Translations under genes and position numbers: made by a program | Notes under the pieces: generated by a model | Told to the model about the DNA's origin: nothing | What the model saw: the letters and a program-made list of their open reading frames with translations, nothing else | The model's database searches: none | Origin: a virus | Strand: one strand, 5' to 3' | Length of the DNA: 64,000 nucleotides | Virus record (IMG/VR): IMGVR_UViG_3300043411_000952 | Location: 1-64,000 of that record | Shown here: positions 4,993 through 35,162 of the stretch, one piece after another | Numbering within the stretch: the stretch's first letter is position 1 | Layout of the letters: each line of letters begins with the position of its first letter

Positions 4993-5622
4993 ATGCTCGA
5001 TACATTTCCGTTCGATAAACGATTAGCTGCGGATCTCTTAGCCGATACTGAAACAACGGCTACAGTTCTGCATATGATCATATTGGCCGCTTACGGAGAT
5101 GAGGTATACGGCTCATTAGAACATAATATCGAGCCCGCTGACCCGGTTGAGTTGTGGCTGCGGATTAAAGAAGATTTCTCCGTAAATGTTCCAGAGTCTA
5201 ATGAGAACAAAGTGAATGCGCTCATGTTAGCCTTATCTACGGACGCTTTCTATGAGGATCCTTTGGCTTTCATAAGTATCGGTAATGCTCTGTATTCCGG
5301 GGATCTCGGTGACTTAGTTAACGGAGCTCTAGAGGACTTAACCATGGCCGAAATGCTTTGGAGTATTTACGAGGTAGAGCTTAACCGTGGAGATTCAGAA
5401 GGATTTGCTTTATCTATCGACCGGTTAATCGATGAGATCATTAAAAACGAAGCGGAAGATAGTGAGGAATTAGAGGAGGCTGAAGTGGTTCCTTACTATG
5501 AAAGGTTCGTGGCTGAAATGCGAGATGATATGCTGGTTCAAATGCGCCTACTAGGCGTAGACGAAATGGTTATTAAAAAGATTCTCAAAGAGGATCTTAC
5601 TCCTGCGCCGGAATTATCCTGA
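4993..5622 (+). CDS. Acidic hypothetical protein
   Basis: A 209-residue, strongly acidic protein (LDTFPFDKR near the start; EDSEELEEAEVV around residue 157) starting seven bases after the previous stop, so probably co-transcribed. No recognised domain. The last nine bases overlap the 3' end of the convergent terminase gene. Acidic head-assembly proteins often neighbour terminases, but no specific function can be supported. Confidence 0.6.
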   Translation: MLDTFPFDKRLAADLLADTETTATVLHMIILAAYGDEVYGSLEHNIEPADPVELWLRIKEDFSVNVPESNENKVNALMLALSTDAFYEDPLAFISIGNALYSGDLGDLVNGALEDLTMAEMLWSIYEVELNRGDSEGFALSIDRLIDEIIKNEAEDSEELEEAEVVPYYERFVAEMRDDMLVQMRLLGVDEMVIKKILKEDLTPAPELS

Positions 5623-25745: not shown

Positions 25746-27011
25746 ATGAGCACACAAAACACACACACCACATATACTATTGGACAAATTAATCACCGCG
25801 TTCGCAGCGGCGGCATTTATTGGAAACAGTGCCTGATCGTAGCAGACAGTGCGTGGTATTTAGTATCCGAGGCTAAACTAGGCGACGCCCTACATCCTAA
25901 GTGGTTAATTTCTAATACTAATTTAGCTAAGCTTCTTCGCGTTAGCGCAAATAATTTGGCTAGTTACTATCAAGCTGTGATGTCTGTACCGTCGCATGCT
26001 ATTTATCATGATGACGCTCCTGTGCATTTCGTTCTTGATGACGGCAAACCTATTAGACGCACGCGTCAGTTGATGTGGACTCTATCGGGTGTGAAGTTTA
26101 TTATCAACTTATCCGGTATACGCATCGATGCTGCAATTAAATCTAGTATTCGCGCCTGGATTTTGGCGCAATCTTCTGTTTACGGTGTTGAGTTGTCGCC
26201 TTCCTTCGCGACGCGCGCAGACCCCGTTACTGTTACTAAAGTTAAAGATTTAAGTATTACATGTGTAGCGGATGCGGTGCAAAATATCACAGCGTCTGTC
26301 CGTTACGTCGCGGGTATTGTAGACCAGCTTTGTCTGGAGGTTAATAGACGCAAAGAACTGGAGGAGGAGATGGCGACTCTACGTAAACAGGTTATGGCGT
26401 TAACCGGTAATTTACCTGGGCTACCAAGCAAGTTACCAAATAAAATTGATGCCGCACGAAAAGCGGACAAACCTGCTGTGCAGTTCACACAAGCCCCCAA
26501 GGCTGATAGAGGTAAGGCTATGGTATTCGCTATTGGTAACAATGGAAGTGAAAATGAAAGCCTGCACCAGTATATTGCTAGAAGAGGAAATAAGCATCAT
26601 AGAGCAGAAAATCTTACTCGTATAGGTTTGCTGAACAGTGATCAACTGTATTCTCTGTTTGCGGACTCATGGATTGACCCTGCTACTAATAAACTTATCA
26701 AAAAAGATAAGTTCCAGGAGCTGCTTCGTCGTACGTTCCATGTGGCGCATTCCAGCCACCGTACACCAATACTCAAGTCTGAAATGATTAGAGCTAATAT
26801 GGCTGTTGTGTGTCAGGTGCTTTGCAAGAAGAAGCCTAATCCTACAGACGATAATGGAAACCAACTTGAGCTCGATAATCCGGCTTATGTTTCCAGCGCA
26901 GAGCCTTGTGTTCGATTCCAGACGCGTTATACAGCGAAAGCTATTGACTACTTGAAGGACAAATGGCATATGATCCTGGGACAATCCAGTGGACAAAAAA
27001 TTAAATCTTAA
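25746..27011 (+). CDS. Hypothetical protein, possible antirepressor-like architecture
   Basis: A 421-residue protein, ATG seven bases after the primase stop. An N-terminal globular part with MWTLSGVKFIINLSGIRI is followed by a short coiled coil near residues 198-220 (RRKELEEEMATLRKQVMAL), a Lys/Ala/Pro linker, and a C-terminal part (HQYIARRGNKHHRAEN, LLRRTFHVAHSSHR). The N-domain/coil/C-domain layout recalls Bro/KilA-type phage regulators, but no diagnostic motif is seen. Sits between primase and polymerase. Confidence 0.6.
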   Translation: MSTQNTHTTYTIGQINHRVRSGGIYWKQCLIVADSAWYLVSEAKLGDALHPKWLISNTNLAKLLRVSANNLASYYQAVMSVPSHAIYHDDAPVHFVLDDGKPIRRTRQLMWTLSGVKFIINLSGIRIDAAIKSSIRAWILAQSSVYGVELSPSFATRADPVTVTKVKDLSITCVADAVQNITASVRYVAGIVDQLCLEVNRRKELEEEMATLRKQVMALTGNLPGLPSKLPNKIDAARKADKPAVQFTQAPKADRGKAMVFAIGNNGSENESLHQYIARRGNKHHRAENLTRIGLLNSDQLYSLFADSWIDPATNKLIKKDKFQELLRRTFHVAHSSHRTPILKSEMIRANMAVVCQVLCKKKPNPTDDNGNQLELDNPAYVSSAEPCVRFQTRYTAKAIDYLKDKWHMILGQSSGQKIKS

Positions 27012-27210
27012 GCTTACAACCAGGCTGGCTCATCTTGAGAAATTAAAAGATGAGCCAGTCATGGAAGATTTTGATGCTGGGCTTCGCGCCGCGCGTTACG
27101 ACGAGTATGTATTTATAAAAGAGGTATTGAAAGTATATGGAGAATCAAACGAAGGACAAGGTAGTACCTGTTCCAGACTACACTCTCCCGCCGTTACAGT
27201 ATCTCGATAA
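26989..27210 (+). CDS. Small overlapping hypothetical protein
   Basis: A 73-residue frame starting at GTG (DKKLNLKLTTRLAHLEKLK) within the end of the previous gene and ending 74 bases inside the polymerase gene. The first 55 residues have a helical, charged composition typical of a real small protein. The tail overlapping the polymerase is less convincing. The 125 bases between the two big genes would otherwise be empty. Confidence 0.45.
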   Translation: MDKKLNLKLTTRLAHLEKLKDEPVMEDFDAGLRAARYDEYVFIKEVLKVYGESNEGQGSTCSRLHSPAVTVSR

Positions 27211-30200
27211 GACAGGGACTGTTCGCGGGCATAATGGTGTTACATTTGTTTCTGGGGAAGGCATAAAGCCAGCCGATATAATGTTTATTACTTCCTGCGT
27301 ATCCCCGCAGGAGGCTAGTAAATTTCTTAAAGGCAGAGACGGAGGGCAGGGCGTCCGGGTGCAGCCTCGTTATCTGAGGTCAGACGCCGGTGTTATGTTC
27401 TCTGATATTTTTAATCAGGAGGGTATCGATCTTTATAAGTGCTACTACACAGCGCTGGTCAAATGGTTGCTGCCCAAGAATGAACGCATTAAGATACCGA
27501 AAGATGTAGTGGCTTGGGCGCTTCCCTCACTAGAAGAAGAGATAGCTCTCGTAAGCCCTAAGATCATTGTATGTATCGGCAAACCTGTCTTTGATCTTCT
27601 AGCAAATATAAAGCTGTCTTTGAGTGACGCCAAAAGCGGTTGGTTTTATAGCGAGAAGTACAACGCTAAAATATATCTCCTCGATGATACATATAAGCTT
27701 GTCTCTAACCCGGAGTACATTGGAAAGTTCCAGGTAGAAGCTAGAGAAATTAATAGGATGTATAAGGAGATATGTAATGTATCCACCGGACGCATTCCTT
27801 TAGAGTATGAGACAATTACTAATTCCTCTGATCTTAAAAGAGTAGTTAGCAATTGGAAACAGAATAATTTTGATGTAATTAGTGTGGACTGTGAGTGGTC
27901 TGGTAACAACCATATAGACGGTAAATTACGCAGCACGCAATTTTGCTGGGCCCCCGGTAAGGCATGTTATGTCCGCTGGATGGATGACAAGGGTAATTAC
28001 ACCTTTGATATTTCGTATAAAGAAGCAGGCGCTATACTTTCAGAGTGGTTAGATTTAGAAGATGTAAAATACATCGGGCATCACTTTGCTGCTGACGCCC
28101 CATGGTTGCATCATGTACTAGGACTTAATTGGTATGAGAAGTGTATTTTCGATACCGAGTTTGCGCAACAAACTGCTAATGAGGCCGAGGACCTTTCCTT
28201 AGAGCGAATAGCCCTGAAGTACACGGATTTAGGAAGGTATGACCTAGATCTTGTGTTGTGGGTTAAACAGAACAAGGCATTAATGGTGGATGGTGGCTAC
28301 GGCGCTATTCCGGATGAGATTCTTATACCTTATGCGTGTTTACGCCAAGAAAGTTTAGTACAGCTAGGCGATGGATCTTGGTGTAAAATTAAAGATCTAG
28401 TTAACAGTAAATATGCAGGAGAAGTTAAGGCTGTATTAAATGGTAAAGTACAGAATTGCAAAGTTACTAACTGGTACAAAGTCAATACCAGACAAAAAGT
28501 GTGGAAGAGGTTAGTAACTAAATATGCACAGAGAGGAAAGCATGGTTACTTAGGTCCGGTATTAACCCCTGATCATAAGGTAATAACGCAGAGAGGTAAG
28601 GTAGCAGTGCAGGATATTATACCTGGAAAGGATAGTATTTGTACGTCTTACAATACTTTTACGTCTACACAATTATCTGTATTTTTAGGTTGTCTACTAG
28701 GCGATGGCGGCATCGCGAGGAGAAACAAAGCGCACGCTGGTTTAGTTATGAGCCAGTGTGAAAAACGCGCTGATTATTTGAAGTGGAAAGTTAATGTACT
28801 TTTTGGTGACCCTGAAAATGTAGAATCAAAAGGTTCTTTATGCGCTTATAGATCCAAGTACACTCCATACATTGCCGCGTTATCGGATACATGGGAGAGA
28901 AAAGAGGCCTTGGCGCATAGTAAAAGAAAATTATTAATTACTGAAAATTTACTAGACCATCTTCAAGCGCCGGGAATAGCTGTCTGGTATCAAGATGATG
29001 GTAACCTAACTTGCGGTAACGAGGTACGTATTACTATTTACCATTTACAAGAGCAGGAGCTTGCCGCCTTACGTTCTTGGTTTAGAAGCAATATGGGTGT
29101 GTATGTTAAATATAGAAAAAATCAGAATCATATATGCTTTTCAGTTAAAGATTCTGTTGTTTTTTTAAATTATATTAAAGATTATATACATAATGATTGC
29201 GGATATAAAACCAATGTTCCGTATAATTTGAAGGTCAACGCGCATATACCAGGTCCTTTGTACTTTGAACCTATTGTTGGTATTAGTGACGTACCGGTCA
29301 AACCTTGTAGCGGTGATGGTATTCGTTACTGCTTAGCTGTAGATAAAGCGGAGAACTTCTTAACTAAGTCTGGTTTTGTTTCTAACTGCAAAGACGTAGA
29401 TACTGTCTTTAGAGCATGGCCAATTATTCAGCGGAGTCTGCAGGCTCAAGATCTTCTAGACTATTATAATAATATATTTCATCCGTTTGTTACGGATGTA
29501 TTTGTGAGTTTCGCCTTGGTTGGCCTTCCTATGGATGTAGCCATGATGGACGAGCTTAGAGTTTTATACACGTTTGCTAGAGACAAAATGGAAGTTATCC
29601 TGCGTGAGGAGATTCATGTAGAGGCTAAGAACTTTGTTTTAATGGCATTTGCAACTAGGTTACCTCCTGAGCTTGCTACTGAAAAATATTTAGAGTTCAT
29701 TTCTTTAATAGCTAATTCAGAGCATATGGAGGCCTGGGCGGTGCTTAAAGGATCCGCTAAAAAGCCTGATGATGTACCTAAACTTAAACATATATTCGAC
29801 CACTTTATTGACAGCGCGCATTTCAATATTAGATCTTCAACACAGTTAAAACGCTGGTTATTTAATGTTAAGTGTTACGAGCCTGTAAAGTCGACTGGTA
29901 ATAAGGAGAAAGGGCTACCTGCAACATCATGGGAAAAGATTAAGTCCATGCCGCCAGAGGCCCAGAAGAATTATAATCCTGCTGTTGATAAACAAACGCT
30001 GCAGATTTTATCTGAACAGAATAATGACGCGCTGCTTCGTAGGTTATTACAATTGAACGCTGTAGGTAATATATGTAAAGCTTTCCTTAAAGAGGCCGAC
30101 ATAGATGCTGACGGTAACGTTGTAAAAGAGAACGGGCTACATTTTTACCTATGCAGCGATAATCGTGTGCATGGGCAAATGAGTACCACAGAAACCGGAA

Positions 30201-33200
30201 GACCCCGGTGCGTCCACGGTGACACTTTAATACGTTGTTTTGATGGTTTTAAACGTATAAGAGATATTAAAATTGGTGACCTTGTCTGGACACATTTAAA
30301 CAGATGGAGAAAAGTAGAGGATACATATATTAAGCCAGCGGCCCCCATGTATAAGGTAAGTTTTGAAAATGGGGAAGTACTGTTATGTACTGAGGAACAT
30401 TTACTATTGACCGAAGCTGGAAAGTGGATATCTGTTAGAGATGTCTGTTTGCAAAAAGCATTTAAACAATCCGGAACTGAGGAAGAAAGTTGTTTCTCTT
30501 TACCGAGAGTCCTTGAGCACCGCCGAGCAAGTAGCGGAGATTTTGAATATAACTCCGCATACTACTTATCGAATACTTCGTCTAGAGTTAGGCGAGGAAG
30601 AATTCAAAAAGCTCAAAGCGATAAAATACTCGAGCTCAAAGCTGGGAGAGAAGAATCCTTGGAAAGGGAAGAGGGGGGAAGAGGCCGCGACCTGGAAGGG
30701 GGATTGCGACGATGGTTACGGTTATTTAACACGCCTAATAGATGGCCAACGTTACTTCGTACATCGTATAGTCATGGCAGAGGCGCTGGGTATACATCCC
30801 TCGCAGTTGCCGGATCATCTAGCTGTGCATCATATAGATCAGGATCGGAAAAACAACGCACTAGACAACTTAGCGCTCTGCACCACATCCGGGCACAGAG
30901 GTATCCACGAAAGATACAAACATACCGATCAGGAATTAAAATTAAAGGGGTTGTCCCTTGCGGAAGCTATCCAGTATATGACATCTCCGTAGAGGAGGAT
31001 CATTCCTACGAGGCGTCCGGTTGTTTTTCGCACAATTCTTGGAAACCAAACTCGTTGAATTGGCCTAGCTATGTTAACTCCATGATTTCTAATGGTATAG
31101 CTGGTCTTTTTGGTAAACTAAAAGAACGCGGAGAATTACCAGAAGAGTTTGAGAAGTTTATTATTAAAAATGATAAGGGGGAATACAAGAGTGAGGTACC
31201 TTCTATACGCAGTTGCGTTAAAGCTCCTGAAGGTTGGTGCTTTGTAGAGTCCGATTATCAGACTGCGGAAATTAGAGGACTAGCCTTTGTATCAGGGGAT
31301 AAAAACCTAATTGATATTGTTTGTAACCCCGATTTAAATTTTGCGGTTACTAAAGATGATAAAAAAGTTCGGCTGGCTTTTCCTCCTGAAGTGTTTCCTC
31401 CTTCCACACAGGAAGAGTATAAACACCTCCTTATTTCCCCGGATGATCCATCCTTAATAAGAAAAGATGACGGTTCTTTGAAACATCCTAAACAGGACCT
31501 ACATTGGTCTTTGGCTGAGATGGTTCATATTAAACCTAGAGAAGTACTTGACGAAAAGAAAGACCGTGGTGCTGCTAAGGTAGGTAACTTCAGCTGCGTT
31601 AATAAATATACAAAAATACGTACAGAAAAAGGTGTTCTAAGCATAGAAGACGCGATAATTTATGGTTGTACTTATGTATGGGATGGTTTAGATATGGTGT
31701 CTTATGATTCCATACAATACCAAGGAAATAGATTCACAATTAATTACCAAGGACTGTCCGCAACCCCAGACCATGTTGTCTGGCTCTCAAGTGGAGAAAA
31801 GTGTTGTTTCGGAGAAGCTGCCTTGCGAGGTCTCAGTATTAAATCGTATAGCGGCTTTGAATTGGATACGGCTGGTAGCAGACACAAGAACAATAGAACG
31901 CGCAAGAAAAGGCATCATATTTATGGTGCGGTGTCAAAGGTGTCAGAAAACAACGCGCAGGTGGTTACACAACGTGGAGGCGGGCAAAGGTCTAAAATGT
32001 CGATGCCTGTCTCCTTTGCGATACAACGACCCACGCGCGCGCACACTAGGCGCAAGGTATCAAGCTATGCGTCAAAGGTGTTTTCTAGACAGCCATGTCA
32101 GCAGCTACAATTACAAGGGGCGAGGCATAAAACTAATATTCAAAAGTCGCAGAGAATTTATTTTATGGGCGCTTCAAAGATGGCCGGATACAGACTTCAA
32201 AGGTTTGGATTTCGACAGAATAAACAACGATGGCCACTACTCGAAGGGCAACCTACGTTTGGTCACAAGGCAAGAAAATTTAAGAAATACGAGAGCTTCT
32301 CGCTGGTCCTACCGCGTACGCGCCGAGAAGTTATTAAAAGACAACCCAGGTGTGAGTGTCTCTATGAAAACGTTATGGGGCATGCTGCAAATGGGGTATT
32401 CGGAAGAAGAAATACTTCTAAGGATAAAGTCTGGAGAAATAAAGAGCCGGAAGGCAATATTAGCAAATGCGAAAGTATTGCAAGCCAGGAATTTAATAAG
32501 ATTAAATCCGGGCTTGGTTGTAGGAGAGAAACATATAATGAGTCTATATCGGAAAGGATTAACCGATCAGGATATAATAGAACATGTGGCGAAGCACGAA
32601 GAGTTAACTTTGCGTATTCGTCAGGCGAAGCAGCGCAGAGAAAACTCTTTGCAGCGATCGGCTCGTATAGGTATAGGCTTCGCGGCCAGTACTACAAGAA
32701 AGATGATACGAGAAGGTCTATCCGACGAGCAATTGCTGGCGGCGTGGGAAAAATCGTATGTAAAGTCAGAATCAATCAGGCAGAAGATAGAGAGGCTTGG
32801 CTTGAAGCTCAGCGTATCTACTACGCACAGGTTGATGAAGCAGGGCATGTCGGACGCGCAGTTAGAAGAATATTCGAAGAAAAGGGTTTTAAGCTCACAA
32901 AAGAGCCAGTATACGATATAATAAACGCAGGACCAAGGCATAGATTTGTTGCCAGTGGCTTGCTTATATCTAATTCGGCATACGGCGCGTCCGCCTCAAC
33001 CCTGGAACGCAAAATTGAACAGGATACAGGTAAGAAGCCAGAAGAAGGTACAGGTCAGCGGTTATTGAAGGCGCTTGAAAAACGTCAGCCAGTAGCACAA
33101 GACTTTTTAATTAAAATGGAACGTGTACCAGAGAAGCCCGGATATTACCGCGCAGCATCTGGAAGAATTCGTCATTTCGCTTCCCATGATCCAAAATACC

Positions 33201-33580
33201 TGGATGACATTGACGAGCATTTGACTATGGGCTTGTTTAAGTCTATGGGTAGAGAAGCTCGCAATTTCCCGATGCAGGAGAGTGTAGCTGCCACCGCTGC
33301 GCGAGCAGGTAAATGGCTGCTAGATGCTTACATCAAGTTAAATATGCAGGCTAGACCATTGATTATTTTATATGATTCCGTTGTTACTCTTTGTCCACTT
33401 GAAGAACGATTTAAGGTTGCGCAATTGCACCAGCTCTTTATGACGGATGAGAACACATGGGAGTACCATGGAAGAAAAATGTCGTACCCTATCGACAGCG
33501 ACTTCGTATATCGTTGGTCGGCTAAACCTGATAAAGATGATAAAAAATTGCTAGAAGATAAAACTTACAAAACCAACTGA
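27137..33580 (+). CDS. UDG-like/3'-5' exonuclease/family A DNA polymerase with three inteins
   Basis: Replicative DNA polymerase, 2147 residues in one frame and 1061 after removal of three inteins. Residues about 45-215 resemble a uracil-DNA glycosylase fold (YKCYYTALVKWLLP, KIIVCIGKPVFDLL). The exonuclease follows with SVDCEW, HHFAADAPWL and YA/CKDVD. The polymerase has TGRPR/SWKPNSLNWP, motif A SDYQTAEIRGLA, motif B RGAAKVGNFS/SAYG and motif C LYDSVVTLCP, where the usual HDE reads YDS. Slashes mark intein sites. Catalytic Asp residues and the motif B Arg/Lys are kept. The next gene starts one base after the stop. Confidence 0.93.
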   Translation: MENQTKDKVVPVPDYTLPPLQYLDKTGTVRGHNGVTFVSGEGIKPADIMFITSCVSPQEASKFLKGRDGGQGVRVQPRYLRSDAGVMFSDIFNQEGIDLYKCYYTALVKWLLPKNERIKIPKDVVAWALPSLEEEIALVSPKIIVCIGKPVFDLLANIKLSLSDAKSGWFYSEKYNAKIYLLDDTYKLVSNPEYIGKFQVEAREINRMYKEICNVSTGRIPLEYETITNSSDLKRVVSNWKQNNFDVISVDCEWSGNNHIDGKLRSTQFCWAPGKACYVRWMDDKGNYTFDISYKEAGAILSEWLDLEDVKYIGHHFAADAPWLHHVLGLNWYEKCIFDTEFAQQTANEAEDLSLERIALKYTDLGRYDLDLVLWVKQNKALMVDGGYGAIPDEILIPYACLRQESLVQLGDGSWCKIKDLVNSKYAGEVKAVLNGKVQNCKVTNWYKVNTRQKVWKRLVTKYAQRGKHGYLGPVLTPDHKVITQRGKVAVQDIIPGKDSICTSYNTFTSTQLSVFLGCLLGDGGIARRNKAHAGLVMSQCEKRADYLKWKVNVLFGDPENVESKGSLCAYRSKYTPYIAALSDTWERKEALAHSKRKLLITENLLDHLQAPGIAVWYQDDGNLTCGNEVRITIYHLQEQELAALRSWFRSNMGVYVKYRKNQNHICFSVKDSVVFLNYIKDYIHNDCGYKTNVPYNLKVNAHIPGPLYFEPIVGISDVPVKPCSGDGIRYCLAVDKAENFLTKSGFVSNCKDVDTVFRAWPIIQRSLQAQDLLDYYNNIFHPFVTDVFVSFALVGLPMDVAMMDELRVLYTFARDKMEVILREEIHVEAKNFVLMAFATRLPPELATEKYLEFISLIANSEHMEAWAVLKGSAKKPDDVPKLKHIFDHFIDSAHFNIRSSTQLKRWLFNVKCYEPVKSTGNKEKGLPATSWEKIKSMPPEAQKNYNPAVDKQTLQILSEQNNDALLRRLLQLNAVGNICKAFLKEADIDADGNVVKENGLHFYLCSDNRVHGQMSTTETGRPRCVHGDTLIRCFDGFKRIRDIKIGDLVWTHLNRWRKVEDTYIKPAAPMYKVSFENGEVLLCTEEHLLLTEAGKWISVRDVCLQKAFKQSGTEEESCFSLPRVLEHRRASSGDFEYNSAYYLSNTSSRVRRGRIQKAQSDKILELKAGREESLEREEGGRGRDLEGGLRRWLRLFNTPNRWPTLLRTSYSHGRGAGYTSLAVAGSSSCASYRSGSEKQRTRQLSALHHIRAQRYPRKIQTYRSGIKIKGVVPCGSYPVYDISVEEDHSYEASGCFSHNSWKPNSLNWPSYVNSMISNGIAGLFGKLKERGELPEEFEKFIIKNDKGEYKSEVPSIRSCVKAPEGWCFVESDYQTAEIRGLAFVSGDKNLIDIVCNPDLNFAVTKDDKKVRLAFPPEVFPPSTQEEYKHLLISPDDPSLIRKDDGSLKHPKQDLHWSLAEMVHIKPREVLDEKKDRGAAKVGNFSCVNKYTKIRTEKGVLSIEDAIIYGCTYVWDGLDMVSYDSIQYQGNRFTINYQGLSATPDHVVWLSSGEKCCFGEAALRGLSIKSYSGFELDTAGSRHKNNRTRKKRHHIYGAVSKVSENNAQVVTQRGGGQRSKMSMPVSFAIQRPTRAHTRRKVSSYASKVFSRQPCQQLQLQGARHKTNIQKSQRIYFMGASKMAGYRLQRFGFRQNKQRWPLLEGQPTFGHKARKFKKYESFSLVLPRTRREVIKRQPRCECLYENVMGHAANGVFGRRNTSKDKVWRNKEPEGNISKCESIASQEFNKIKSGLGCRRETYNESISERINRSGYNRTCGEARRVNFAYSSGEAAQRKLFAAIGSYRYRLRGQYYKKDDTRRSIRRAIAGGVGKIVCKVRINQAEDREAWLEAQRIYYAQVDEAGHVGRAVRRIFEEKGFKLTKEPVYDIINAGPRHRFVASGLLISNSAYGASASTLERKIEQDTGKKPEEGTGQRLLKALEKRQPVAQDFLIKMERVPEKPGYYRAASGRIRHFASHDPKYLDDIDEHLTMGLFKSMGREARNFPMQESVAATAARAGKWLLDAYIKLNMQARPLIILYDSVVTLCPLEERFKVAQLHQLFMTDENTWEYHGRKMSYPIDSDFVYRWSAKPDKDDKKLLEDKTYKTN
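28337..29386 (+). mobile_element. Polymerase intein 1 with in-frame LAGLIDADG endonuclease
   Basis: 350 residues from Cys (CLRQESLVQLGDGSW) to VSN, followed by extein Cys. Block B is LTPDHKVI. The endonuclease motifs FLGCLLGDGGIA and IAVWYQDDGNL are in frame. Penultimate residue is Ser rather than His, a known variation at this position. It interrupts exonuclease motif III (YA before, CKDVD after). Confidence 0.92.
30209..31036 (+). mobile_element. Polymerase intein 2, linker dual-coded with an out-of-frame HNH gene
   Basis: 276 residues from Cys (CVHGDTLIRCFDGFKRI, block A) through CTEEHLLLTEAGKW (block B) to VYDISVEEDHSYEASGCFSHN in overlapping blocks F/G, with Ser as +1 residue. The roughly 180 residues between are Arg/Ser/Gly-rich, without any intein endonuclease motif, because this DNA encodes an HNH protein in the +1 frame (30441-30992). 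Insertion is in TGRPR/SWKPNS of the polymerase. Confidence 0.9.
30441..30992 (+). CDS. HNH homing endonuclease nested out of frame in intein 2
   Basis: A 183-residue protein in the +1 frame relative to the polymerase-intein frame, contained between the splicing blocks. It has an N-terminal helix-turn-helix-like part (STAEQVAEILNITPHTTYRI), the WKGDCDDGYGYLTRLIDG and YFVHRIVMAEALG signatures of phage HNH_3 endonucleases, and the core LAVHHIDQDRKNNALDNLAL with TTSGHRGIH. ATG at 30441 follows GTTAGAG, a weak ribosome signal. The protein-like motifs are in this frame and not in the intein frame, so this is a real gene and the intein linker is the overprinted partner. Confidence 0.88.
   Translation: MSVCKKHLNNPELRKKVVSLYRESLSTAEQVAEILNITPHTTYRILRLELGEEEFKKLKAIKYSSSKLGEKNPWKGKRGEEAATWKGDCDDGYGYLTRLIDGQRYFVHRIVMAEALGIHPSQLPDHLAVHHIDQDRKNNALDNLALCTTSGHRGIHERYKHTDQELKLKGLSLAEAIQYMTSP
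31595..32974 (+). mobile_element. Polymerase intein 3, linker dual-coded with an out-of-frame HNH gene
   Basis: 460 residues from Cys (CVNKYTKIRTEKGVLSIEDA) through LSATPDHVVWLSSGE (block B) to EPVYDIINAGPRHRFVASGL and ISN, with Ser as +1 residue. It splits motif B of the polymerase (RGAAKVGNFS/SAYGAS), restoring the R-x3-K-x7-YG spacing on splicing. Its central 330 or so residues are strongly basic and motif-less; the same DNA encodes an HNH protein in the +1 frame. Confidence 0.9.
31704..32921 (+). CDS. HNH-type homing endonuclease nested out of frame in intein 3
   Basis: Open for 405 codons in the +1 frame. The first 70 codons overlap intein block B and look non-native, so the likely start is ATG 31923 (MVRCQRCQKTTRRWL), giving 332 residues. 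It has a zinc-binding CQRC...CRC, then TLGARYQAMRQRCF, YKGRGIKL, FILWAL and GLDFDRINNDGHYSKGNLRL with TRQENLRNTR, the H-N-H-type nuclease core with Asp in place of the first His. The tail holds three repeated helix-turn-helix-like units (GYSEEEIL, GLTDQDII, GLSDEQLL, GMSDAQLE), probably DNA-recognition modules. The stop lies in the block F DNA. Confidence 0.85.
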   Translation: MIPYNTKEIDSQLITKDCPQPQTMLSGSQVEKSVVSEKLPCEVSVLNRIAALNWIRLVADTRTIERARKGIIFMVRCQRCQKTTRRWLHNVEAGKGLKCRCLSPLRYNDPRARTLGARYQAMRQRCFLDSHVSSYNYKGRGIKLIFKSRREFILWALQRWPDTDFKGLDFDRINNDGHYSKGNLRLVTRQENLRNTRASRWSYRVRAEKLLKDNPGVSVSMKTLWGMLQMGYSEEEILLRIKSGEIKSRKAILANAKVLQARNLIRLNPGLVVGEKHIMSLYRKGLTDQDIIEHVAKHEELTLRIRQAKQRRENSLQRSARIGIGFAASTTRKMIREGLSDEQLLAAWEKSYVKSESIRQKIERLGLKLSVSTTHRLMKQGMSDAQLEEYSKKRVLSSQKSQYTI

Positions 33581-33581
33581 C

Positions 33582-35162
33582 ATGTCATTCGTTCCTACTG
33601 ATTATTCTGAAATTCAAAGACAACTGAAAGCTGAAAAAGAAAACAGCTACTGGGGTGGTTATTACAAGCCAGGTATTTATGGCGGCACACCCACACAAAA
33701 GAAAATGTTCTCCGGTAGAATTTTACCGGCGTTTAATTATGCCTTATCCCAGGCTGACGCGGATTTCCAGTCTTCCTGGATGCCGTATCGTAATGCAGAT
33801 AATATCGACGCGGAAACTAATCAGCCGGTACTCAGCGCTTTCTTCGCTGTTGTGGCTGCTTACTCCTGGTTCGGTAATAAACAAGTATCGTTCCTGAGCC
33901 CTTCAACATTGCGATTCACTCACAGTATTTCGCGCGGCCCTGAGCTCATCGATCCTGTGCAGGATATTCGTAACTTCGCCAAGAAGCATGACGATCCAGC
34001 TATACGCGCTTTAACTGAACGCCCTGAAAATAAGAAAGACGCTAAAATTGTCATTCCTTATCCTCAGCGTCGTTATGTGTTTAACTTCTTTGGTACTGCA
34101 GGTACAGACCGTAATGTTAGAAATTATTTAGTCGATGTATCTCAGAAGGCCTTCGAAGACCTAGCCGGTAAGCTGTCCGAGTGGCGTCCCGCGCATGAGC
34201 AGACTATTGATCCTAACTGGCCTCATTATTTATATGGTGATATTACTGATCCGCAAAGCGGTGTTATGGTTGAGACTACCCCCATTCCCTCGACCCCACA
34301 GCCTTTCAACGGCTTTGTGTTTACATCTGGATCTCATAAGTCGCTAAAAGGTGTGCGTCAGTATCCCGTCCCTCCAGAAGCTATGACTGGACGTTATCAC
34401 CTTTATGGTGACAGCTCCGCCTTTAAAGTTATGGGCGCGCAGGAAATTATTGAGTTCCTCGTAGAGGACGGCGCAATTCCTTATCATTTGATCGAGGAGG
34501 TGTGTAGTAACTACGCACATATTCCGCCAAGCCCAAGTAGAGCCAAGGTATTTCCTGGTTCCAATTCGGAAGAAGACTTAGATTCATTCCGCCCTCCAGT
34601 GGCCAATCCGTTTGCGCAGAAACCCGCAGCCGTGCAGCAGGCCGCTCCTTATAGGCCCCCTGCACCTCCAGTGCCTGTCCAACAAGAGACCCCTCCATGG
34701 GAAACTCCAGCAACCCTTTCGCCTCCGCCGCCAGCCATGGTAGCGCCTGAAGAAAGGTTCTGGGTGTCCATGAATGGTAATACTGAAGATGAGCCTATCA
34801 CTCGGGCAGAGGTGCAAAGCCTCATCAGTACGCATACGACTAGTACGTTTATGATCTGCGGTACAGGCACAAAAAGTGTTTGGCAGACTCCTGCCGAGGC
34901 TGGATTCGTGGTACAGGCTAACAAGCCTAAACCTCCAGCCCTACCGCAGCCAGCCCCCGCTCCTTCATCACTACCTAGCATAACCGCCACACCGCCCCCA
35001 GCGGTAGTCGTGCCAGTTGCTCCGCCTTCTACCTCCATTCTCACGGATGAGGAGAAAGTGGCGTATGATGAATTAAAAGCTAAGTTTGACGCGGGCACAC
35101 TCCCAACTTCAGAGTTGATGAAGTTTGTGCAGTTCGTCAACCGTATCGAGAAGAAGGCTTAA
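33582..35162 (+). CDS. Single-stranded DNA-binding-like protein with GYF_2-like C-terminal domain
   Basis: 526 residues, starting one base after the polymerase stop. The N-terminal NSYWGGYYKPGIYGG and SGRILP with later YPQRRYVFNFFG resemble large-phage gp32-type SSB proteins. A Pro/Ala-rich linker (residues about 330-385) leads to RFWVSMNGNTEDEPITRAEV, STFMICG and SVWQTPAEAGF, a GYF_2-like small domain, then another Pro-rich stretch. Coating of ssDNA at the fork is inferred from the motif and from the position between polymerase and recombinase. The Pro-rich tail could recruit partners. Terminator follows. Confidence 0.6.
   Translation: MSFVPTDYSEIQRQLKAEKENSYWGGYYKPGIYGGTPTQKKMFSGRILPAFNYALSQADADFQSSWMPYRNADNIDAETNQPVLSAFFAVVAAYSWFGNKQVSFLSPSTLRFTHSISRGPELIDPVQDIRNFAKKHDDPAIRALTERPENKKDAKIVIPYPQRRYVFNFFGTAGTDRNVRNYLVDVSQKAFEDLAGKLSEWRPAHEQTIDPNWPHYLYGDITDPQSGVMVETTPIPSTPQPFNGFVFTSGSHKSLKGVRQYPVPPEAMTGRYHLYGDSSAFKVMGAQEIIEFLVEDGAIPYHLIEEVCSNYAHIPPSPSRAKVFPGSNSEEDLDSFRPPVANPFAQKPAAVQQAAPYRPPAPPVPVQQETPPWETPATLSPPPPAMVAPEERFWVSMNGNTEDEPITRAEVQSLISTHTTSTFMICGTGTKSVWQTPAEAGFVVQANKPKPPALPQPAPAPSSLPSITATPPPAVVVPVAPPSTSILTDEEKVAYDELKAKFDAGTLPTSELMKFVQFVNRIEKKA

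Follow-up and report, generated by a model that had tools for sequence, protein, structure and literature searches.

The DNA analysed here (the window) covers 64,000 bases of the 74,193-base virus record IMGVR_UViG_3300043411_000952. A long open reading frame within it encodes a DNA polymerase precursor of family A, whose N-terminal part has UDG-like and exonuclease regions and which contains three inteins (Table 1). The fusion of a uracil-DNA-glycosylase-like domain to the N-terminal side of a family A polymerase is shared by some relatives (L010 and L011). A tblastn search of phage records with the last segment of the polymerase gave no match and, therefore, no named phage is closely related to this one in that segment.

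Table 1. Features of the polymerase gene and its inteins, and of two split relatives. Positions are those of the window, except in the last row.
Feature	Position	Strand	Evidence
Family A DNA polymerase precursor ORF, 2147 aa	27137..33580	+	Pfam DNA_pol_A, DNA_pol_A_exo1, UDG; PHROG DNA polymerase
Intein 1, canonical, in-frame LAGLIDADG endonuclease; internal control	28337..29386	+	LAGLIDADG_2, E 5e-13, in the polymerase frame
Intein 2, polymerase frame, 276 aa, C1 ... H275-N276, +1 Ser	30209..31036	+	Intein profile and fold matches at both ends
Intein 2 N-terminal splicing part, residues 1-86, C1, block B CTEEH	30209..30466	+	pLDDT about 90; matches gp41-1, Mtu RecA and Ssp DnaB inteins
HTH-HNH homing endonuclease ORF (intein 2), 183 aa, +1 frame	30441..30992	+	Pfam HNH_3, E 4e-10; several PHROG HNH families
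Intein 2 linker (HNH region read in the intein frame), residues 87-241, stop-free, disordered	30467..30931	+	pLDDT < 50, no secondary structure
HNH catalytic domain (VHRIV..HHID..NN..DNL..GH..IH)	30753..30896	+	HNH_3 match, residues 105-152
Intein 2 C-terminal splicing part, residues 242-276, VYDISVEEDHSY ... SHN	30932..31036	+	Profile search, AlphaFold2, Foldseek
Bases shared at the edge by block F of the intein (VYDIS) and the C-terminal end of the HNH (YMTSP)	30932..30989	+	VYDI and MTS both kept in L002
Intein 3, polymerase frame, 460 aa, C1 ... SN, +1 Ser, site NFS^SAYGAS	31595..32974	+	C1/VWDG/TPDH and YDIINAGPRHRF blocks
Intein 3 HNH ORF, 405 aa, +1 frame, start codon uncertain	31704..32921	+	PHROG HNH endonuclease, E 1e-18
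Split forms: IntN ending at a stop, nuclease ORF, IntC	L158:3501-4680, L168:3501-4701

Canonical endonuclease-bearing inteins carry a LAGLIDADG or HNH endonuclease in frame between splicing blocks B and F. Intein 1 of the polymerase is of this kind, and its other two frames contain 26 and 41 stops. Intein 2 is like the canonical inteins in its splicing blocks, its HINT fold, its insertion at a conserved polymerase motif and the location of an endonuclease between blocks B and F, but this endonuclease is encoded in an overlapping frame and lies outside the intein polypeptide.

The splicing blocks of intein 2 (C1, CTEEH, H275-N276 and the +1 Ser) are in frame with the host protein, as an intein requires, and the polymerase ORF stays open throughout its 276 codons, the middle of which has no recognisable content in this frame. 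When nine sequences of the intein 2 type were modelled with AlphaFold2, residues 1-86 and 242-276 were predicted with confidence and residues 87-241 as disordered. A Foldseek search with the intein 2 model returned the gp41-1 and DnaB mini-inteins as the best PDB matches (probability 1.00), as expected for a HINT fold, and in a profile comparison with solved inteins both ends matched and the linker did not. Residues C1, H64, H275 and N276 were invariant in the nine sequences. The insertion site reads TGRPR^SWKPNSLNW, and relatives at the equivalent site read TGR..^[SC]..PNLQN. An earlier note on this DNA had assigned the intein to the right coordinates and its blocks to the right frame.

The HNH ORF which that note had read in the +1 frame was likewise confirmed by its Pfam and PHROG matches. 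The encoded protein is 36-47% identical to eight relatives, and residues H130, H131, N139, N143, H152 and H156 were invariant across the nine sequences. The ORF has the catalytic motif and the DNA-binding region required of an HNH homing endonuclease; it does not have the location in the frame of the splicing domain that is asked of an intein endonuclease. The nearest folds to the model of the protein (pLDDT 80) were I-HmuI and I-PpoI, with a weak match (E 0.05, probability 0.90).

Intein 3, which was not listed in the earlier finding on intein 2, has the same out-of-frame HNH arrangement. Its HNH protein is 29-30% identical to HNH proteins of Gardnerella and Streptococcus phages, which are likewise encoded in the +1 frame of a polymerase intein; Gardnerella phage AB1 and Streptococcus phages Javan113 and PhiSdyV1524 carry inteins of this type and are annotated there only as DNA polymerase. 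The intein 3 HNH is longer than those of its relatives (405 versus about 259 aa), and its extra C-terminal segments look repeated. A search of solved structures with the intein 3 HNH and the mini-intein alignment as queries gave no useful relative.

The open polymerase frame was evaluated against a codon null in which the HNH protein is fixed and synonymous codons are drawn according to each phage's own usage, under the assumption of independent synonymous choice. Over the HNH of intein 2, 17.2 stops were expected and none was observed (P(open) = 8e-11), and over that of intein 3 the expectation was 36.5, again with none observed (P = 1.3e-21). The same null gave P(open) of about 3e-8 to 9e-13 for four relatives (L002, L005, L006 and L007), L002 having the intein 2 arrangement at the identical polymerase site with 48% HNH identity. 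In the +1 register, a polymerase-frame stop requires a T at the third position of an HNH codon before AA, AG or GA, and therefore each such stop can be removed by a silent change. At these stop-creating positions T was present in 0/39 cases in intein 2, versus 44/100 elsewhere, and in 0/89 cases in intein 3, versus 76/217 elsewhere. A frame open by chance is ruled out by the codon null and by the relatives chosen by their splicing domain.

Relatives were collected either by the HNH or by the splicing (HINT) domain. The set chosen by HNH similarity alone (107 loci) was bimodal: in 55 of the 107 the host ORF was free of stops and had the HNH in its +1 frame; almost all other loci had several to dozens of stops. 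The hosts in this set include family A polymerases, with several insertion sites, and DEAD-type helicases. Similarity to the splicing domain of intein 3 alone yielded 63 loci, corresponding to 40 non-redundant inteins, with the HNH in +1 in 21 and in +2 in five; eight were mini-inteins or remnants, two were cut by contig ends, and in four no IntC was found by pattern. Among these last four, L158 and L168 are split, and the host ORFs of L156 and L170 are of normal length, the absence of IntC in the latter two being probably a miss of the pattern. Stops within the HNH match were present in 7 of the 26 out-of-frame loci, which may be decaying. For the intein 2 type, the splicing domain recovered 17 full-length loci of 276-283 aa (some of them identical contigs), all with the HNH in +1, and one mini form of 155 aa; all of them are at the polymerase motif TGR..^[SC]..PNLQN (motif A site), and more distant matches in other genes were inteins without an HNH of the intein 2 family. 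An in-frame HNH was found in none of the 40 non-redundant intein 3-type relatives or of the 17 full-length intein 2-type ones. The window and dozens of relatives thus support the inference of the earlier note, made there for a single intein, of an out-of-frame HNH in a mini-intein with both frames kept open.

In a tree of the HINT domains, the +2 group formed one clade (96/81) and the HNH-less forms were scattered, as repeated losses would give, if a tree of such low resolution is followed. In the +2 clade (L162, L171, L172, L177 and L181), which is made up of polymerase inteins, the host frame also remains open, although these open frames are less improbable than those of the +1 inteins (3e-5 to 2e-2). 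The idea that +1 is the only workable register is wrong in view of this clade; for the +1 proteins tested, the +2 register would be impossible, as an unavoidable Met followed by A creates a TGA.

Selection on the two frames was analysed in 15 copies of the intein 3 type, found in Gram-positive (pro)phages and genomes and all exactly 309 aa long. Nine diverse copies showed the periodicity of the polymerase frame in codons 1-60 and 301-309 and that of the HNH frame from about codon 76 to 285. Codons 286-300, in which the same bases encode block F and the HNH C-terminus, showed low variability at all codon positions. Mean identity over 45 pairs was 70% for the HNH and 39% for the linker, and third-position changes predominated in the HNH frame of the relatives. 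Four-fold HNH sites unable to create a stop diverged by 0.67, compared to 0.66 at the four-fold sites of the extein, whereas the stop-capable ones diverged by 0.45 and had T in 0/247 cases, versus 148/449. Because of this neutral four-fold divergence and the absence of T at the sites at risk, the linker is, on the evidence of these alignments, selected for its stop-free state only, its residues not being otherwise conserved. Constraint in both frames is limited to short stretches at the two edges. A functional linker protein was considered and rejected, as its residues drift at the rate of extein four-fold sites and the AlphaFold2 model is disordered. Consequently, the 'dual-coded linker' of the earlier note holds as far as the lack of stops is concerned, but not for the residues.

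As to the translation of the HNH, in relatives that use Shine-Dalgarno (SD) sequences its ATG is found about 8 nt after a AAGGAGGT-like sequence, which is composed of the conserved intein codons for [KR]-E-V. The overlapping Glu codon was GAG in 20/24 of these relatives against 10.4 expected (P = 2e-5). An SD of at least 5 nt preceded 21/22 intein 3-type HNH starts but only 53/842 background ATGs; as the start codons were picked partly for having an SD, the GAG test is the cleaner one. No SD was found at the HNH start of the window (30441), in a phage whose genes generally lack it (an SD of at least 5 nt precedes 4/32 of them, a proportion close to the random rate). Initiation at this start is unproven, and its position is only inferred from homology (MSV-KK). 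The separately translated nuclease of the earlier note is consequently backed by the SD-using relatives and lacks such backing in the SD-poor window phage.

Several relatives have lost the HNH without losing the intein. In L108 a stop lies inside the HNH and the intein frame is open; in L112, L113 and L114 (inteins of 168, 135 and 155 aa) deletions in the HNH leave the frame of the intein intact, and broken or deleted HNHs with an intact polymerase frame were also found in L121, L143 and L151. An insertion site conserved between members and intein-free homologs, as expected of an intein, is present: all members at the motif A site have TGR..^[SC]..PNLQN, and the intein-free L118 reads ELA^CGYGG, although an exact intein-free copy is available only for the intein 3-type site. 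Most of the intein was present in 7/93 phage records similar to the polymerase stretch. In L168 and L158, which belong to the intein 3-type HINT family, the intein frame is interrupted by stops, followed by a separate nuclease ORF (HNH-type in L168, GIY-YIG in L158) and by an IntC with its own ATG (M[KR].YDI.NAGP) that overlaps the end of the nuclease ORF. Linkers with stops, which the earlier note had named as a refutation, do exist in these homologs, but in genes that are split and have a separate IntC ORF.

Fractured genes, attributed to Dassa et al. 2009, are reportedly split inteins with a free-standing endonuclease gene between their halves. The unfused endonuclease gene between splicing halves is common to them and to the window inteins, and L168 and L158 have that very layout. 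The intein frame of the window is uninterrupted, with no IntC on an ORF of its own, so intein 2 is not a split intein and splicing would occur in cis.

Out-of-frame HNH genes have been described in phage DNA methylases, as the ShiLan domain and the Pacc40 insertion (Arsenault, Gosselin, Gogarten 2025, PMC11855218). In the ShiLan insert the authors found no splicing domain of either intein or intron type, and the insert is thought to stay in the methylase (PMC11855218). In both systems an insertion with an open host frame carries an HNH homing gene in a different frame, and the distribution is sporadic. In ShiLan, however, the HNH is in the third frame and without a splicing domain, whereas the window inteins have a full HINT domain, with the HNH mostly in +1 in relatives at several genes and sites; intein 2 has in common with ShiLan the out-of-frame HNH in an open insertion, but not the absence of a splicing domain. 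In a literature search for out-of-frame HNHs, only ShiLan and the Applejack announcement (PMC12613952) were found, and no description of one inside an intein. A preprint on non-canonical phage inteins (10.1101/2025.01.02.630785), known here only through its citation by PMC11855218 on overlapping reading frames in actinobacteriophages, has contents not covered by that search and may hold priority. The out-of-frame HNH as such is, accordingly, known from ShiLan (PMC11855218), and its presence inside an intein with a splicing domain is apparently new, being strongly supported by the sequences, with activity inferred.

The reading that we favour, with a probability of about 0.87, is that a mini-intein was invaded by an HNH gene that remained unfused and out of frame, both frames being kept open. 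The HNH homing-endonuclease gene would have entered the middle of the mini-intein at the DNA level and never fused to it. Translation of the polymerase frame would give a precursor, in which the two splicing parts fold around the disordered filler and the intein is removed in cis, and the HNH would be made separately from the common mRNA, by internal initiation at or near 30441. Polymerase genes without the intein would be nicked or cut by the free HNH close to the insertion site, and the whole intein would be copied during repair. Selection would hold the linker open by silent changes at little cost to the nuclease, because every stop in the +1 register can be removed in this way. The sequences themselves show the architecture, the homology, the avoidance of stops and both the selection on the HNH protein and the dispensability of the HNH; splicing, internal initiation in the window phage, DNA cleavage and homing are inferred, in the absence of splicing, nuclease or expression data.

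HNHs of the same HNH-plus-helix family (about 29-35% identity) are also found in group I introns near an identical polymerase motif, among them L003, L004 and, reportedly, I-PfoP3I from the intron of a phage DNA polymerase gene (PMC3428280). The HNH region could then be a group I intron nested in the intein or polymerase gene and be removed by RNA splicing, the open frame being incidental. This is very improbable: no Rfam group I or II match was found in 27000-34000 or in the intein relatives, and the positive controls L003 and L004 scored for RF00028. Introns act at the RNA level in host frames full of stops, with 22 polymerase-frame stops in L003 and 20 in L004, whereas the intein copies have none and the polymerase frame is retained in the HNH-deleted forms. 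That sequencing or assembly frameshifts displaced an in-frame HNH has only the metagenomic origin of the contig in its favour and can be practically discounted, as each of the two inteins would need two compensating errors, and so would dozens of relatives from independent contigs, from phage isolates and from bacterial genomes, all with the same register. It would also leave the stop avoidance and the SD conservation unexplained; this refuter, put forward in the earlier note, is excluded by the many independent relatives.

Programmed frameshifting from the intein frame, giving a polymerase-IntN-HNH fusion without internal initiation, would fit the lack of an SD in the window and is used by phages elsewhere. 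We regard it as unlikely in view of the SD and ATG at a constant position and the GAG enrichment in relatives, with the reservation that slippery sites were not systematically searched. Decayed copies (L108, L112-L114 and the HINT-census loci with stops in the HNH match) would suit an HNH that is a dead relic in an intein that alone matters. In the window, however, the ORF is intact with all the catalytic residues conserved across the nine sequences, and the predominance of third-position changes in relatives and an HNH identity far above that of the linker also make this unlikely.

Beyond the invaded mini-intein itself, unfused out-of-frame endonucleases could be a second widespread route of intein mobility, with a HINT lineage of phage polymerases and helicases that carries its HNH only out of frame and holds the register by silent stop avoidance. 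This would be a natural intermediate towards mini-inteins, by deletion of the HNH in the intein frame, and towards split inteins, by closure of the frame and restart of IntC at the end of the endonuclease gene. We put the chances of this broader reading at about even. The arrangement suggests a stepwise and testable route to split inteins. It is also a clean case, found in nature, of two genes on the same DNA where selection on one frame asks only for the absence of stops and leaves a signature that can be measured. Inteins with long featureless inserts are read as endonuclease-free or degenerate, and many would hide a nuclease in another frame, which searches of the intein frame alone would miss, as in the Streptococcus and Gardnerella phage copies mentioned above.

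The arrangement also suggests a link between group I intron and intein endonucleases at one polymerase motif. Intron and intein may plausibly have exchanged endonucleases at one target, an inference drawn from the resemblance between the HNHs of the intein 2 type and those encoded by group I introns near the same motif. HNH relatives no more than a few codons from the intein 2 site were observed in the polymerase genes of L003 (2983-3519) and L004 (2866-3396), both group I introns, and in L095 (near 5001-5444), an intron-like insert without an Rfam match.

Two further observations concern mini-inteins. A single polymerase ORF in L127 contains two tandem members of the intein 3-type HINT family, the first of which is a mini-intein. 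In the Ruminococcus phage mini-inteins L116 and L117 (140 aa), the first 50-odd residues differ and the remainder is identical, as if recombination had occurred within the intein.
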